Below the pieces are notes generated by a model. That model had not been told where the DNA came from. It did no database searches and saw only the letters and a program-made list of their open reading frames with translations. From contig CAMCUN010000008.1 in the NCBI GenBank assembly GCA_945878995.1, positions 1 through 64,000 of the forward strand: a DNA stretch of 64,000 nucleotides, given 5' to 3'. Below, piece by piece: positions 12,577 through 21,423 of the stretch (its first letter is position 1; each line of letters starts with the position of its first letter). This DNA comes from Polaromonas sp. YR568. GTDB taxonomy: Bacteria > Pseudomonadota > Gammaproteobacteria > Burkholderiales > Burkholderiaceae_C. A program made the translations under genes and the position numbers.

Positions 12577-15531
12577 TTGAACCAACTGACCGACAGCAAA
12601 TACCTGGCCCAGGCCCTGGGCGCCCAGCGCATCAGCGTGCGCGGGGCGCGCACGCACAACCTCAAAAACATAGACCTCGACATTCCGCGCAACCAGCTGG
12701 TGGTCATCACAGGGCTGTCGGGCTCGGGCAAGTCCTCGCTCGCCTTTGACACGCTTTACGCCGAAGGCCAGCGCCGCTACGTGGAGAGCTTGTCGACCTA
12801 CGCCCGGCAGTTTTTGCAGCTCATGGACAAGCCCGATGTGGACTTGATCGAGGGCCTGTCGCCCGCCATTTCCATAGAACAAAAGGCCGCCTCGCACAAC
12901 CCGCGCTCCACCGTGGGCACGGTCACTGAAATTCACGACTACCTGCGGCTTTTGTACGCCCGCGCTGGCACGCCCTTTTGCCCCGAGCACGACCAGCCGC
13001 TGCAGGCCCAAAGCGTGGGCGAAATGGTGGACGCGGTGCTGGCCCTGCCCGAGGGCACCAAGCTCATGATCCTGGCGCCCGTGGCGCGCGAGCGCAAAGG
13101 CGAGTTTGTTGATGTGTTTGAGCAGATGCAGGCCCGCGGCTATGTGCGCTTTCGGGTGGACGGCCAAACTTACGAGACCGAGAACCTGCCCAAGCTCAAA
13201 AAGGCCGAAAAGCACAACATCGACGTGGTGATAGACCGCATCAAGGTGCGCCACGCCCCGGCTGACGGCGACCGCCAGGAGTTTGACCAGCTCAAGCAGC
13301 GCTTGGCCGAAAGCTTTGAAGCGGCTTTGCTGCTGGCCGAGGGCAAGGCCATGGCGCTGGACATGGACGCCGCGCCCGGCCAGGGCGAGCGCCTGTTCAG
13401 CGCCAAATTCGCCTGCCCGGTGTGCGACTACTCGCTGGCCGAGATGGAGCCGCGCCTGTTTTCTTTCAACTCGCCCATGGGCGCGTGCAGCTGCTGCGAC
13501 GGCCTGGGCCATCGCGACTACTTTGACCCGCAGCGCGTGGTGGCTTTCCCCACGCTGAGCCTGGCCAGCGGCGCCATCAAAGGCTGGGACAGGCGCAACG
13601 CCTCTTACTTTGCCCTGCTCGAAAGCCTGGCCAAGCACTACCAAGTGAGCATTGAAGAGCCTTTTGAGTCCTGGCCGCCCGCCGTGCAGCAGGTGGTTTT
13701 GCAAGGCTCTGGCAGCGAAGAAATCAAGTTCAGCTACGTGGTCGAGTCTGGCCAGTCGGCCGGCCGCAAGGTCACCAAAAAGCATGCCTTTGAGGGCGTG
13801 ATCCCCAACTTTGAGCGCCGCTGGCGCGACACCGATTCCAACGTGGTGCGCGAAGAGCTGGCCCGCTACCGCAGCGTGCAGCCCTGCCCCGACTGCCAGG
13901 GCACGCGGCTCAGGCGCGAGGCGCGGCATGTGTTTTTGGTCAACGGTCAAGACGGCGGCCGCAAAGCCATTTACGAGATCAGCGGCGCCACGCTGCGCGA
14001 GAGCTTGGCCTACTTCAGCGGCCTGAACATGAACGGCGCCAAGGCCGACATTGCGGCCAAGGTGGTGCGAGAGATTGGCCTGCGCCTGAAGTTCTTGAAC
14101 GACGTGGGTCTCAACTACCTCAGCCTGGACCGCAGCGCCGACACGCTCTCAGGCGGCGAGTCGCAGCGCATTCGCCTGGCCTCGCAAATTGGCTCTGGCC
14201 TCACCGGCGTGATGTACGTGCTCGACGAGCCCAGCATTGGCCTGCACCAGCGCGACAACGACCGCCTCATTGCCACCTTGCAACACCTGCGCGACATTGG
14301 CAACAGCGTGCTGGTGGTCGAGCACGACGAAGACATGATCCGCGCGGCCGACCACGTCATCGACATGGGGCCGGGCGCGGGCATCCACGGCGGGCGCGTC
14401 ATGGCCCAGGGCACTTACGCCGAGGTGGCCGCCCACCCTGAATCGCTCACCGGCCGCTACCTGTCGGGTGCGCTGCGCATTGAGGTGCCCTCCACCCGCA
14501 CACCCTGGCAGCCCGTCAAAAACGGTGCGCCCGGCGCACTGCAGGCCTTGCGCATCGTGGGCGCCAGCGGCCACAACCTGCAAAACGTGAGCGTCGACTT
14601 TCCGGTCGGGCTTTTCACCTGCGTCACCGGCGTGTCGGGCTCGGGCAAGTCCACCTTGGTCAATGACACGCTCTACGCCGCTGTGGCCCGCCACCTTTAC
14701 CGCGCCCACGAAGAGCCCGCCCCGCACGAGGCCATAGAGGGCCTGGAGTACTTCGACAAAGTCATCAACGTCGACCAGTCGCCCATTGGCCGCACGCCGC
14801 GCAGCAACCCGGCCACCTACACGGGTCTCTTCACCCCCATTCGCGAGCTGATGGCCGAGATGAACAGCGCCAAAGAACGCGGCTACGGCGCCGGTCGCTT
14901 TTCCTTTAACGTGGCCGGTGGCCGCTGCGAGGCCTGCCAGGGCGACGGCATGGTCAAGGTAGAAATGCACTTTCTGCCCGACGTTTATGTGCCCTGCGAC
15001 ATCTGCCACGGCCAGCGCTACAACCGCGAAACCCTGGAAGTGCTCTACAAAGGCAAAAACATCGCGCAAATCTTGGCCATGACGGTCGAAGACGCTGCCC
15101 ACTTTTTCAGCGCCGTGCCCGCCATCTCGCGCAAGCTGCAAACCTTGCTCGACGTGGGTCTGTCGTATGTCAAGCTCGGCCAAAGCGCCACCACGCTCTC
15201 AGGCGGCGAAGCCCAGCGCGTCAAGCTCGCGCTGGAACTGTCCAAGCGCGACACCGGCCGCACGCTCTACATCTTGGACGAGCCCACCACCGGCCTGCAC
15301 TTTGCCGACATCGCGCTCTTGCTCAAGGTGCTGCACCAGCTGCGCGACGCGGGCAACACCATTGTGGTCATCGAGCACAACCTGGACGTCATCAAAACCG
15401 CCGACTGGCTCATCGACATGGGCCCCGAAGGCGGCTCAGGCGGCGGCACCGTGGTGGGCGTGGGCACGCCGGAAGACCTGGCCACCCACGAGGCCAGCTT
15501 CACCGGGCGCTACCTGCAGCGGCTGCTGTAG
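12577..15531 (+). CDS. uvrA: Excinuclease ABC subunit A
   Basis: Two ABC domains ([44 protein letters not shown]), Zn motifs; TTG start [12 protein letters not shown] preferred over the extended ORF start at 12355. Confidence 0.96.
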
Positions 15532-15558
15532 GCGATGGTTTGGTGGGGTTGGGGCCCG

Positions 15559-16079
15559 TTGCCCGGCACGATTCGCTTGCAGGCAAGCTCCTACAAAAAC
15601 AAGACGGCTGCGGGCATGACGGTTTTCTCCCCTGTGGGAGCTGGCCTGCCAGCGAATGTTCGCCTGAGCTGATGTCCGTTGACTGACACGCATCGCTTGC
15701 AGACAAGCGCCTACAAAAACAGGGCGGCTGCGGGCACGACGGTTTTCTACCCTGTGAGAGCTGGCCTGCCAGCGAATGTTCGCCTGAGCTGATGTCCGTT
15801 GACTGACACGCATCGCTTGCAGGCAAGCTCCTACAAAAACAAGACGGCTGCGGGCACGACGGTTTTTTACCCTGTGGGAGCTGGCCTGCCAGCGAATGTT
15901 CGCCTGCGCTGATGTCCGTTGCCCGGCACGATTCGCTTGCAGGCAAGCTTCTGCAAAAACAGGGCGGCTGCGGGCATGACGGTTTTCTCCCCTGTGGGAG
16001 CTGGCCTGCCAGCGAATGTTCGCCTGCGCTGATGTCCGTTGCCTGGCACGATTCGCTTGCAGGCAAGCTCCTACAAATA
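15559..16079. repeat. Tandem REP/BIME-like array, four complete 120-bp units plus partial fifth
   Basis: Unit starts near 15559, 15679, 15799, 15919, 16039; each has inverted pair 'attcgcttgcaggcaagctcctaca'/'tgtgggagctggcctgccagcgaat'. Confidence 0.93.
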
Positions 16080-16143
16080 CGCATCTCCCAGCCGCACAGC
16101 TACCATCCCAACTTCAACAACCTTTCCCTCCATCGGAGACACC

Positions 16144-16626: not shown

Positions 16627-17331
16627 ATGAACCGACGCCACTTTCACCTCCACACAGCCCAACACCTGGGCCTGCTGACCCTGCTCACCTGGCAGCAGGC
16701 GCATGCCCTGAGCCTGGGCGATTTAAGCGCCAGCGACGCCAGTGGCGGGCTCAAAACCGCGCTTGAAAAAGCCACCCAAGCCGCCGTGGAGAGCTTGGGC
16801 AAGGCGGGTGGCTTCATGGCCAACGAGAAAGTGCGCATTGCCCTGCCCGGCTACCTTAACGACGGCGCCAAGCTGCTGCGCACCCTGGGCCAGGGCAAGC
16901 GTGTGGATGAGTTGGTCTCGGCCATGAACCAAGGCGCCGAGCAGGCCGTGCCCCAAGGCCGCCAGTTGCTCACCCAAAGCGTGCAGCAAATGACGGTGAC
17001 CGACGCCAAAGCCATTTTGAGCGGCGGCGACACCTCGGTCACCAAGTTCTTCTCTGAAAAAACCCGTCCCGGCCTGAGCCAAACCTTTTTGCCCCTCGTC
17101 ACCCAAGCCACCGACAAAGTGGGCTTGGCCGACAAGTACAACAAGGTCGCTGCCAAGGCCTCAGGCATGGGGCTGGTCAAAGCTGAGGACGCCAATATTC
17201 AAAAGTACGTCACCGGCAAAACGCTGGACGGGCTGTACCTGGTGATTGGCGAAGAAGAAAAAAAGATACGTCAAAACCCAGTGGCTTACGGCAGTGCGCT
17301 GCTCACCAAGGTGTTTGGGGCCTTGAAGTAA
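16627..17331 (+). CDS. DUF4197 family protein (signal peptide)
   Basis: 'MANEKVRIALPGYLNDGAKLLRTLGQGKRVDELVSAMNQGAEQAVPQ' typical DUF4197 text. Confidence 0.82.
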   Translation: MNRRHFHLHTAQHLGLLTLLTWQQAHALSLGDLSASDASGGLKTALEKATQAAVESLGKAGGFMANEKVRIALPGYLNDGAKLLRTLGQGKRVDELVSAMNQGAEQAVPQGRQLLTQSVQQMTVTDAKAILSGGDTSVTKFFSEKTRPGLSQTFLPLVTQATDKVGLADKYNKVAAKASGMGLVKAEDANIQKYVTGKTLDGLYLVIGEEEKKIRQNPVAYGSALLTKVFGALK

Positions 17332-17358
17332 AGCGGGGGCTTGTTTGTCTTAGCCCGC

Positions 17359-17715
17359 TCGCCCCTTTGGGGAGAGGGGCACGCGTGAGGAAACGGTGGT
17401 GCCACGCGATGCCCCCACCCCGGCCCTCCCCCAGAGGGGGAGGGAGGAATTCGGGGAGGGCTTGTCTTGCTCCCTCGCCCTTTTGGGGAGAGGGCTGGGG
17501 AGAGGGGCACGCATGAGGAAACGGTGGTGCCACGCGATGCCCCCACCCCGGCTCTCCCCCAGAGTGGGAGGGAGGAATTCGGGGAGGGCTAGTCTTGCTC
17601 CCTCGCCCCTTTGGGGAGAGGGCTGGGGAGAGGGGCACGCGTGAGGAAACAGTGGTGCCACGCGATGCCCCCACCCCGGCCCTCCCCAGAGGGGGAGGGA
17701 GGAATTCGGGGTCCG
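17359..17715. repeat. Tandem G/C-rich repeat, about three copies of 128 bp (first copy lacks about 13 bp)
   Basis: 'ctcgccc' unit starts at about 17359, 17474, 17602; same family as 1-175. Confidence 0.92.
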
Positions 17716-17718
17716 GGT

Positions 17719-18543
17719 TCAGCCCTTGGCCGCCTCCAGCGTGTCCCGCGTTTGCAAGGCCACCGCCCGTGCGGCCTGCGCATAGTCGTCGCCCTGCGAG
17801 GCATACAAAATCGCCCTCGAAGAATTCACGATGATGCTCGCCCCCTCGCGCCAGCCGGCCTTGACCGTGGCCACCGCATCGCCTCCTTGCGCGCCCACGC
17901 CCGGAATCAACAGCGGCATGTGTGGCGCCACCTGGCGCACGCGCTCAATCTCGTTCGGGTAGGTCGCACCCACCACCAGACCCAACTGGCCGTTGAGGTT
18001 CCAGGGACCTTGGGCCAGGCGTGCCACATGCTCGTACAGCAGGGGCTGGCCCTCCACCGAGGCCAGGCGCTGGTTTTGCAAATCGTCGCCGCCCGGGTTG
18101 GAGGTGCGGCACAGCAAAAAAGCGCCCTTGCCCTCGTACTGCAAATAAGGCTCTACAGAGTCCCAGCCCATGAAGGGCGACAGCGTCACCGCGTCTGCCC
18201 CGTAGCGCTCAAAAGCCTCGCGCGCATACTGCTGGGCGGTCGAGCCAATGTCGCCGCGCTTGGCATCCAAAATAATGGGAACCTGCGGGGCCACGCGCCG
18301 CATGTGCTCCATCAGCCGCTCCAGTTGCCCCTCGGCCCGGTGCGCGGCAAAGTAGGCAATTTGCGGCTTGAAGGCCGACACCAGGTCGGCCGTGGCGTCC
18401 ACGATGGCGGCGCAAAAGTCGTAAATCTTGTTGGCGTCGCCCTTGAGCCGACCCGGAAAGCGCGTGGGCTCCGGGTCCAGGCCCACGCACAACATTGATT
18501 GGTTCTGGCGCTCGGCGGCGGCCAGCATCTGGAGAAAGATCAT
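17719..18543 (-). CDS. pyrF: Orotidine 5'-phosphate decarboxylase
   Basis: '[14 protein letters not shown]', '[20 protein letters not shown]'. Confidence 0.95.
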
Positions 18544-18673: not shown

Positions 18674-18715
18674 AAGGCTTAAAGCCTTCAAACGAGAATA
18701 ATTCTCATTTATAAT
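18674..18715 (+). promoter_or_regulatory. Fur box (18691-18709) overlapping predicted promoter (-10 TATAAT 18710-18715), preceded by a 7-1-7 inverted repeat (18674-18688)
   Basis: AACGAGAATAATTCTCATT, palindromic core GAGAATAATTCTC; AAGGCTT-A-AAGCCTT upstream. Confidence 0.85.
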
Positions 18716-18744
18716 GAAAGTCCACCCCCTTTTCAGGAAGTCAT

Positions 18745-19023
18745 ATGGCGCAGTCACCCCCTTCATCAAGCTGCCAGCACACCTTGCTGGCCCAAAGCCC
18801 GGTCGGGCATGTGTCGGCCTGCTCCGATTGTGGGGTGGTGCATCTGAGCTTGGACTGCGTGACGGTTCGGCTGGAGTTGAGCGCTTTTGTGGCCCTCACA
18901 GAGATGCTGTCGCAAGCGCATAAACGCTTGAACTGCACGCAGACACCGGCAGCCCCCACCTTGCTAGAGCCGACCCATGCGGTCCATCGAGCAACAAGAC
19001 CGCACAAGCTGGAGGTCTCATGA
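18745..19023 (+). CDS. Small Cys-containing hypothetical protein, Fur-box-controlled
   Basis: 92 aa with 'VSACSDCGVVHLSLDCVTVRLELSAFVALTEMLSQAH'; stop overlaps DUF2325 start (ATGA). Confidence 0.8.
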   Translation: MAQSPPSSSCQHTLLAQSPVGHVSACSDCGVVHLSLDCVTVRLELSAFVALTEMLSQAHKRLNCTQTPAAPTLLEPTHAVHRATRPHKLEVS

Positions 19024-20246
19024 GTGATCAATGTGCCAGCCCGCCTGCGAGCACGACAGGGTCTCGCCGCAGACGGCTTTGGAACCTTCCCGCCTTATGC
19101 CATTGCCCCGTGGTGGGCGTGTGTTTTCCCCTGCCCGCCCTGCGACAGTTGGTCAACAAGGCCTTGGGTGGCAAAGCTGTCGCGGACGACTACGACGTGC
19201 ATGTCGGCGCGGTGGCGCAATGCACCCAGCGCAATCGGCTGTCCGAACTGCTGCAAAAGGATCTGGAATCACGCTACGCCAGCACGGTTCAGGGCTTTCG
19301 CGCCGCAAGAGACACTCCAGCGGTCGCCGACTTGTGGGCGGCTGCTCTCAGGAAGGCCGATGTGGCCGGGGCGTTCTGGGCCACGCTGACCCATCCGCGC
19401 TGCGACGATGCGCTGCAAGAGGCGGTATTGCGTGACATGCACATGCTGCAACATCAAGCGGGCGCGGCCGTGCGGGTCGATGCGGCTCGCGTCAACGAGC
19501 TGATCAAGGAAAACGGGGTTTTGGCGCGAGAGTTGGGCAAGGCGCAAGAGCGCTGCACCCGTGTGATCGCTGAAAAATCAGCGCAGATCAATGAGCTTCA
19601 TGCGCAGTTGATGCGGCAACGCGCCACAGCGATAGGCAAGGACACACAGATTGCGTTCCTGAGTCAGGATCTCGAGCAACTCAAGGCCTCGCTGCCGGAC
19701 TATGAGTACACCACCCCACTGCGCCAAAAGCTCGAACACATGCGCGCCCGACAGGCCGAACTGGAGGCGCAAAACGCGCTGCTGCGCCAGCGGCTCAGCC
19801 AAGCGCAACGCTCGCTGAGTCTTCCCAACAGGGAAGTGACCTGCGCACCTGCCACCGACGGTCACAAGCAGGCCCTCAAGGAAAGCCCAATCACGTTCCA
19901 CCTCAAAGAGAAGACGATCTTGTGCGTGGGCGGCCGCCATGGAAATGTGCCCAACTACCGCGATGTCATCGAGAAGGCGGGCGGGCAGTTCGCCCACCAT
20001 GACGGTGGAATGGAAGACAGCCAGGCTTCGCTCGACGCGGTCCTGGCCGCCGCAGATCTGGTGATTTGCCAAGCCGGCTGCATCAGTCACAACGCCTACT
20101 GGCGGGTCAAAGACCACTGCAAGCGCACAGGCAAACAATGTGTCTTTGTCGAAAACGCCAGCACATCGTCCCTGACCCGCACTTTGCAACGCATCGCCGC
20201 AGATGACACCGGCTGGGACCTGGCCGAAAACACCCTCGAAAAATAA
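19020..20246 (+). CDS. DUF2325 domain-containing protein with central coiled coil
   Basis: C-terminal 'KTILCVGGRHGNVPNYRDVIEKAGGQFAHHDGGMEDSQASLDAVLAAADLVICQAGCISHNAYWRVKDHCKRTGKQCVFVEN' typical DUF2325; coiled-coil-like middle; N-terminal 'LCHCPVVGVC'. Confidence 0.88.
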   Translation: MSDQCASPPASTTGSRRRRLWNLPALCHCPVVGVCFPLPALRQLVNKALGGKAVADDYDVHVGAVAQCTQRNRLSELLQKDLESRYASTVQGFRAARDTPAVADLWAAALRKADVAGAFWATLTHPRCDDALQEAVLRDMHMLQHQAGAAVRVDAARVNELIKENGVLARELGKAQERCTRVIAEKSAQINELHAQLMRQRATAIGKDTQIAFLSQDLEQLKASLPDYEYTTPLRQKLEHMRARQAELEAQNALLRQRLSQAQRSLSLPNREVTCAPATDGHKQALKESPITFHLKEKTILCVGGRHGNVPNYRDVIEKAGGQFAHHDGGMEDSQASLDAVLAAADLVICQAGCISHNAYWRVKDHCKRTGKQCVFVENASTSSLTRTLQRIAADDTGWDLAENTLEK

Positions 20247-20467
20247 AGACCCAGGCAGAAGGACCCACAGGCGTGAAAAGCCCCTGCTTTAGTTTTGCCA
20301 TGTGCAGGTCTGCACGCGCCCGCACCAACGCTTGCGCGCCAGGGCTGAACTGAGCGCCGCGTCACTTCTGCCCTGGCCCTGCGCACGGTGAGTGATTTCG
20401 CCACCGCCACCGCGCCATCAAGGTTAAGCTGCGCCCATCCCAGTCACCCACCACCGCAAAACTGCAC

Positions 20468-21085
20468 ATGCTCAAACTTCTCCGCCCAATGCTGTGGCTC
20501 CTCCTCGCCGCCATGACCGCACCCGCCCAAGCCACCGAAGAGCCCGACCACCAAGTGCTGCGCCAATGGGGCAAGGTGGAGCTGCGCCAGTACCAGCCCT
20601 ATGTGGTGGCCGAGGTGGTGCTCCAGGCCACGCCCGAAGACGCCGGCAACCAGGCCTTTCCCATCTTGGCGGGCTACATCTTTGGCAAGAACAAGGGCGA
20701 GCGAAAGCTGGAGATGACCGCCCCAGTGACCCAAACCGCCGTGCCCATGAAAATGGACATGACCGCCCCGGTCACGCAGACCGCCGCAGGCAGCGGCGCC
20801 ATGCGCGTGCAATTCGTGCTGCCCAAGGCCGTGACGCTGGAGACCGCCCCAGAACCGCTGGATGCGCGCGTTCAATTGCGCCAAGTGCCGGCCAGCAAGT
20901 GGGCCGTCATTCGCTACTCAGGCTCTTGGTCGCAGGCCAACTTCGCAGAACAGTTGGCGCTGCTCAAGGCCACGCTGGACAAAGAAGGCGTGGCCACCCA
21001 GGGCGAGCCCGTGCTGTCGCGCTACAACGCGCCCTTCACCCCGCCGTTTTTACGGCGCAACGAGATTTGGCTGGCGCTGCGCTGA
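20468..21085 (+). CDS. SOUL-family heme-binding protein (signal peptide)
   Basis: 'GKVELRQYQPYVVAEVVL', 'KLEMTAPVTQTAVPMKMDMTAPVTQT', 'YNAPFTPPFLRRNEIWLAL'. Confidence 0.9.
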   Translation: MLKLLRPMLWLLLAAMTAPAQATEEPDHQVLRQWGKVELRQYQPYVVAEVVLQATPEDAGNQAFPILAGYIFGKNKGERKLEMTAPVTQTAVPMKMDMTAPVTQTAAGSGAMRVQFVLPKAVTLETAPEPLDARVQLRQVPASKWAVIRYSGSWSQANFAEQLALLKATLDKEGVATQGEPVLSRYNAPFTPPFLRRNEIWLALR

Positions 21086-21106: not shown

Positions 21107-21332
21107 AATCAGCCGCTCCAGCTGCCCCTCGGCCCGGTGCGCGGCAAAGTAGGCAATTTGCGGCTTGAAGGCCGAAACAGGTCGGCCGTGGCGTCGACGA
21201 TGGCGGCGCAAAAGTCGTAAATCTTGTTGGCGTCGCCCTTGAGCCGCCCCTGAAAGCGCGTGAGTCCAGGCCCACGCACAACATCAATTGGTTTTGGCGC
21301 TCGGCGGCGGCCAGCATGGCAAGAAAAGTCAT
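21107..21332 (-). pseudogene. Degraded duplicate of the 5' end of pyrF
   Basis: About 225 bp collinear with 18311-18543 ('agccgctccag.tgcccctcggcccggtgcgcggcaaagtaggcaatttgcggcttgaaggccga'), small indels, frame broken. Confidence 0.93.
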
Positions 21333-21423
21333 GCGGGAGTTGCAGGGAGCGGTCGAGCAGCTGAGGCTGCTTGTGTCACGCGGGTCCCGCCATGGGGATC
21401 AAACTGGCGCGCCGCGGCGGCGC

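Follow-up and report, generated by a model that had tools for sequence, protein, structure and literature searches.

A putative Fur-controlled operon encoding a small CxxC protein and a long DUF2325 protein in Polaromonas sp. YR568, and iron- and molybdenum-linked branches of the family

Organization of the locus and its promoter

The window, by which we mean the whole 64,000-nucleotide stretch of Polaromonas sp. YR568 DNA that was analysed, contains two overlapping genes on the forward strand, preceded by a promoter with a Fur-box-like palindrome and followed by a SOUL-family gene. The features are listed below, with the evidence in brackets.

18674-18688, no strand: inverted repeat AAGGCTT-A-AAGCCTT, perfect 7-1-7, overlapping the -35 (sequence)
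18687-18715, forward strand: sigma-70-like promoter TTCAAA-17-TATAAT (promoter scan, 10/12; 0.2 expected from shuffles)
18691-18709, no strand: Fur-box-like palindrome AACGAGAATAATTCTCATT (sequence, score, footprint in relatives)
18745-19023, forward strand: ORF of a 92-aa CxxC protein, presumed cytoplasmic (ORF list, profile search, alignment)
19020-20246, forward strand: ORF of a 408-aa long-form DUF2325 protein of the iron branch (ORF list, Pfam, tree)
19077-19469, forward strand: N-terminal all-helical domain, residues 20-150 (alignment, AlphaFold2)
19407-19820, forward strand: long helix and return helix, coiled-coil-like, residues 130-224 and 228-267 (AlphaFold2 model)
19917-20192, forward strand: C-terminal alpha/beta DUF2325 domain, residues 300-391 (Pfam, model, fold search)
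20468-21085, same strand as the DUF2325 gene: SOUL-family gene (Pfam SOUL, E=1.2e-45)

The first-pass annotation of this DNA had described a Fur-box-like palindrome touching a TATAAT -10 and a perfect 7-1-7 inverted repeat just upstream, and both are found: the palindrome abuts the -10 (18710-18715) and the repeat precedes it. The palindrome occupies the whole spacer of TTCAAA-17-TATAAT, exactly between the -35 and the -10, which is a usual position for a repressor. The Fur-box-like operator overlaps the promoter, as expected of a member of a Fur regulon, and is footprinted in relatives. If one mismatch at most is allowed, this palindrome is the only occurrence of the pattern AATGAGAATNATTNTCATT in the 4.1-Mb assembly. 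When the upstream region was compared with the Fur consensus GATAATGATnATCATTATC (PMC545781), the top score was 13/19, a value that 2 of 60 shuffles also reached; taken alone, the site is only moderately significant. From Acidovorax to Malikia, relatives keep the Fur-like core and the adjoining -10 in register but not the flanks, and it is this conservation, which outweighs the score of the site alone, that makes the case for a Fur site. A Fur protein is encoded in the genome (one FUR match, E=2.2e-44). A search of the four TonB receptors of the genome gave no comparable Fur box, and hemP was not detected either, so that the local motif finds no internal confirmation. The 7-1-7 repeat, considered as a second operator, was discarded because the two closest relatives (loci L129 and L130) do not contain it, and from this comparison it is probably incidental.

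The 92-aa protein, noticed at first for its CSDCG...C motif, is a real ORF and, as judged from sequence comparison, belongs to a genuine family. A Pfam scan of the ORF gave no match above the cut-off; a profile built on it recovers proteins with a CxxC and a terminal His, whose motif is C..C[GN] plus a conserved His. The matches of all three scanned members fall on the same first ~50 positions of the DUF6686 (PF20391) profile, with 11.4 bits for the protein studied here and 17.6 and 14.7 for its relatives, below the cut-off of 23.9 bits. The ORF is under purifying selection (pN/pS 0.45 with respect to the Acidovorax homologue). In the relatives the conserved His is C-terminal; here it is H81 and is followed by an extension of 11 residues, which derives from the loss of the ancestral stop. 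In fact, in the nearest relative the ORF ends with ...VVH-TGA, 29 nt ahead of the next ATG, and this ancestral TGA is CGA in the present genome. In addition, the ATGTGT of the relatives has become ATGAGT, which gives the overlapping stop and changes Cys2 of the DUF2325 protein into Ser. The ATGA junction on which the first-pass annotation remarked is therefore present, whereas stop/start coupling as an ancestral trait of the family was rejected, since the relatives that were checked have a spacer; on this comparison the overlap arose locally by loss of a stop codon, and no other genome in the comparison has it.

The second ORF encodes, as first proposed, a 408-aa protein with a C-terminal DUF2325 domain. 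The PF10087 match covers residues 300-391 (E=9.8e-27) with 93.4 bits, against a gathering cut-off of 33.6, and pN/pS with respect to the Acidovorax homologue is 0.22, which indicates purifying selection. In the N-terminal domain, modelled alone by AlphaFold2 as eight helices with a pLDDT of 95, H28, C29, H61, H125, H141 and H145 are invariant in 32/32 aligned homologues and C35 is nearly so. The DUF2325 domain carries HDGG, C354, H357 and C367, together with three branch-specific cysteines, C302, C350 and C374, whose codons are at 19923, 20067 and 20139, respectively. Given these invariant His/Cys sets, metal binding by the protein is plausible. Sequence searches of the PDB gave only coiled-coil matches with the whole protein and nothing significant with either the N-terminal or the DUF2325 domain alone, and NCBIfam gave only SMC-like coiled-coil matches. 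Foldseek found no fold match for the N-terminal domain (best E 0.52) and a weak likeness of the DUF2325 domain to receiver, PTS-IIB and Rossmann folds (best E 7e-3). No known anti-phage defence model was matched in PADLOC, and there were no phage matches. The same three-part layout is present in many Burkholderiales families, in another gammaproteobacterial order and in Alphaproteobacteria; within the genus the gene is patchy, being present in 3 of the 37 genomes searched, its own included.

The SOUL heme protein gene that had been pointed out next to the pair is indeed downstream. Its role as a partner in the module was rejected, since a SOUL gene adjoins DUF2325 in 0/80 named loci and the adjacency occurs only in the window itself. 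Just beyond it lies a pyrF fragment (21108-21333, reverse strand), 92% identical to the intact pyrF at 17719-18543 on the same reverse strand, so that pyrF sequence stands on both sides of the CxxC-DUF2325-SOUL block. This block is missing from four relatives in the genus that do carry pyrF, and the neighbours of pyrF differ in relatives. Repeat-like stretches, recognisable by peptides that recur in several reading frames of the list of ORFs, were also seen in the window at ~15436-16084 and ~17290-17670.

Iron genes around the homologues

The upstream regions of homologues were searched for the Fur consensus. A score of at least 14/19 was found at 15/41 homologue loci as compared to 5/214 control ORFs. 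In the set of 80 named loci, which is closer and partly redundant, with many close Duganella and Janthinobacterium copies, the values were 7/80 and 6/391 (Fisher p=0.002); this weaker enrichment is probably due to the many genes that sit downstream in hemP operons. As a raw count, an iron gene lies no more than 4 kb away in 65 of the 80 loci, and hemP is upstream in 45. Chance is an unlikely explanation for these neighbours, because in most of the 45 loci hemP lies directly upstream and on the same strand. The usual iron neighbours are hemP, ferritin or bacterioferritin, chaN, fecCD, imelysin and a TonB receptor; Pfam confirmed hemP, TonB_C, ExbB, ExbD, receptors, ferritin, Bfd, P19, FUR, ChaN, FecCD and imelysin. 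In Duganella and Janthinobacterium the order is hemP, a small helical protein, DUF2325.

The locus can be compared with Fur-repressed hemP/hmuP operons such as chuPRSTUV of C. violaceum, which likewise have a Fur box at the promoter, a small first gene and iron genes, and in which many relatives of this DUF2325 gene directly reside. The difference is that here, hemP being absent from what was found in the genome, the 92-aa CxxC protein fills the slot of the small gene. The first-pass annotation had asked whether this protein is conserved beside DUF2325, and it is, in a minority of cases (13/80 named loci). Elsewhere, its relatives sit in hemP - CxxC - tonB - exbB - exbD operons, an order that at locus L106 was fully confirmed by Pfam, receptor included; others follow piuC-type genes or precede a fur-like gene and ferritin.

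Several further arrangements were observed. An unnamed family of helical proteins of ~70-110 aa is encoded upstream of DUF2325 in 48/80 named loci, or else precedes the CxxC protein (L176:3605-3928, L149:3342-3653, L102:4019-4297 and others), and is apparently an interchangeable small partner. Shorter Burkholderiales DUF2325 proteins (L008, L009, L011, L012 and L006) were seen by eye, either with Fur-box-like sites just upstream or with iron genes as neighbours, namely Bfr and Bfd, a Fur-like gene and a hemP-like end. At L067:6387-8105 a 573-aa protein with a weak match to CbiX (chelatase-like) is flanked by a DUF2325 gene on one side and a TonB receptor on the other.

DUF2325 had been called uncharacterised, and it is indeed without an assigned function; expression data do exist. 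Iron represses the short DUF2325 gene cj1384c of Campylobacter jejuni, which has a Fur motif, and expression of cj1383c-cj1384c is raised when fur is mutated (PMC4491227, PMC3815106). Cj1384c shares the Pfam domain PF10087 and is Cys-rich (PMC9426514), but it is a 104-aa protein encoded next to katA, while the 408-aa protein has long helices and an additional helical domain with His/Cys residues, and the neighbours of its relatives serve iron uptake or storage. Box enrichment, footprint, iron neighbours and the published repression of cj1384c all support the expression pattern first suggested for this operon, which is probably under Fur control and induced by iron starvation.

Iron and molybdenum branches of the long DUF2325 family

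A subset of the long homologues has no Fur box and carries instead a palindrome like CGCTATATTCACACGAATATAGCG, which matches the ModE consensus ATCGNTATATA-N6-TATATANCGAT (PMC545781). Palindromes of this type lie close upstream of 7/11 genes of this Mo branch, as compared to 0 in 705 kb of iron-branch loci. The neighbours of these genes encode a ModE-type regulator, Mop, modABC, nifQ, glp, molybdopterin oxidoreductases and xdhC. The 11 Mo-linked sequences form one clade (support 97/93), recovered in 98% of bootstrap trees.

The two groups were labelled by neighbourhood and operator prior to the comparison of residues. In the alignment, the iron branch has C302 in 28/29, C350 in 29/29 and C374 in 28/29 sequences, whereas the Mo branch has Tyr at 302, Phe at 350 and Tyr, Phe or Trp at 374, each in 11/11. 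Common to both are H327, C354 (mostly), H357 and C367 in the DUF2325 domain and, in the N-terminal domain, H28, C29, C35 (27/29 in the iron branch), H61, H125, H141 and H145. Since the N-terminal set is the same in both branches, the choice of metal is not explained by this domain itself. C302, C350 and C374 are on, or at the start of, the predicted strands 299-303, 347-351 and 373-377, and from this predicted secondary structure it is plausible that they form one site. At the level of sequence, then, the long DUF2325 family has two branches, one linked to iron and one to molybdenum, with a residue switch between them. The gene of the window has Cys at all three positions and falls outside the Mo clade, on the iron side of the tree; it shows neither the Mo-linked grouping nor the aromatic residues. 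ModE-linked proteins (Caballeronia, Methylorubrum, Aureimonas) have the same three-part architecture and N-domain ligands, but lack C302/C350/C374 and have a ModE-type operator and Mo genes in place of the Fur box and iron genes.

Three sequences outside both groups have Y302, C350 and F374 (3/3). In Azospirillum, just outside the Mo clade, the combination is Y302/C350/F374, yet a Fur-box-like site and exbBD-tonB are nearby; the residue switch is therefore imperfectly tied to the metal. An alphaproteobacterial homologue at L122:7071-8309 (reverse strand) is split into ORFs of 291 and 96 aa, near modABC and ferritin-like fragments and with a Fur-like box, and is a possible mixed iron/Mo case.

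A proposed metal-handling role and its alternatives

As an explanation of the whole locus, we give a probability of roughly 50% to a Fur-repressed operon with a metal-handling DUF2325 protein, whose family would be specialised in iron and molybdenum branches. In this Comamonadaceae-type bacterium, when iron is scarce, apo-Fur would leave the operator between the -35 and the -10, and both proteins, the small CxxC and the long DUF2325 one, would be made in the cytoplasm, as suggested by sequence and comparison. The long helical hairpin may serve oligomerisation and the DUF2325 domain may be the metal-specific part, in the iron branch binding iron, an Fe-S cluster or heme iron via C302/C350/C374 with H327/C354/H357/C367; the N-terminal His/Cys domain, common to both branches, would serve as sensor or as transfer site. 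The long protein would capture and hand over scarce iron, or sense it, with the CxxC protein as metal-binding partner, and in the sister branch it would have the same role for molybdenum under ModE. We infer that the long protein is a cytoplasmic metal-scarcity sensor or chaperone, and the same holds for its mechanism, its metal binding and the direction in which it acts.

A different function for the cysteines is suggested by the literature on cj1384c, which adjoins katA, is induced 352-fold by violet-blue light and is reported to be under PerR control, and for whose product quenching of ROS or metal binding was proposed (PMC9426514; an attempted purification of a DUF2325 protein failed in the same work). 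Accordingly, the protein might belong to redox or peroxide defence, being made in iron shortage since the Fur and PerR regulons overlap with oxidative stress; its cysteines would quench or sense oxidants instead of handling metal. An msrB gene directly follows the Rhizobium homologue. This reading is unlikely, considering that the Burkholderiales neighbours serve iron uptake and storage and include no catalase or peroxidase, that His prevails among the conserved ligands, above all in the N-domain, and that the Mo clade and its ModE-type operators are left unexplained. About as improbable is that the protein is a heme or iron sensor that regulates uptake genes with HemP as partner, rather than a carrier. 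The gene order in Duganella and Janthinobacterium, the published C. violaceum work (PMC9131926) and the domain-helix-domain anatomy of the AlphaFold2 model, which resembles that of signalling proteins, speak for such a sensor, whereas no DNA- or RNA-binding family was detected, this genome gave no HemP and the Mo branch is without heme context.

It could also be asked whether the block between pyrF and its 92%-identical fragment is a horizontally acquired passenger, with a chance Fur-like promoter. The patchy occurrence in the genus (3/37), the different pyrF neighbours in relatives, the lost stop of the 92-aa ORF and the Cys2 to Ser change would fit such a remnant. On the other hand, the ORFs are intact with pN/pS well below 1, the ligands are kept, and the box and the -10 are in register with relatives; because of this selection and of the conserved ligands, a passenger remnant is very improbable.

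Returning to the metal-handling reading, its extension to the family is tentative, at slightly less than even odds: long DUF2325 proteins would constitute an undescribed trace-metal scarcity class, with a Fur/iron form (Cys302/Cys350/Cys374) and a ModE/Mo form (aromatics), in which a shared His/Cys domain of new fold senses the metal or feeds it, and the small partners encoded just upstream (CxxC or ~100-aa helical) are interchangeable. The small CxxC family tied to hemP-tonB operons is now named. DUF2325 is widespread, and the two-branch pattern offers a first testable idea of its role, as the matched operators, the neighbours and the three residue switches lead to paired, direct predictions on iron and molybdenum. 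The iron/molybdenum split is the new result, and the part worth pursuing.
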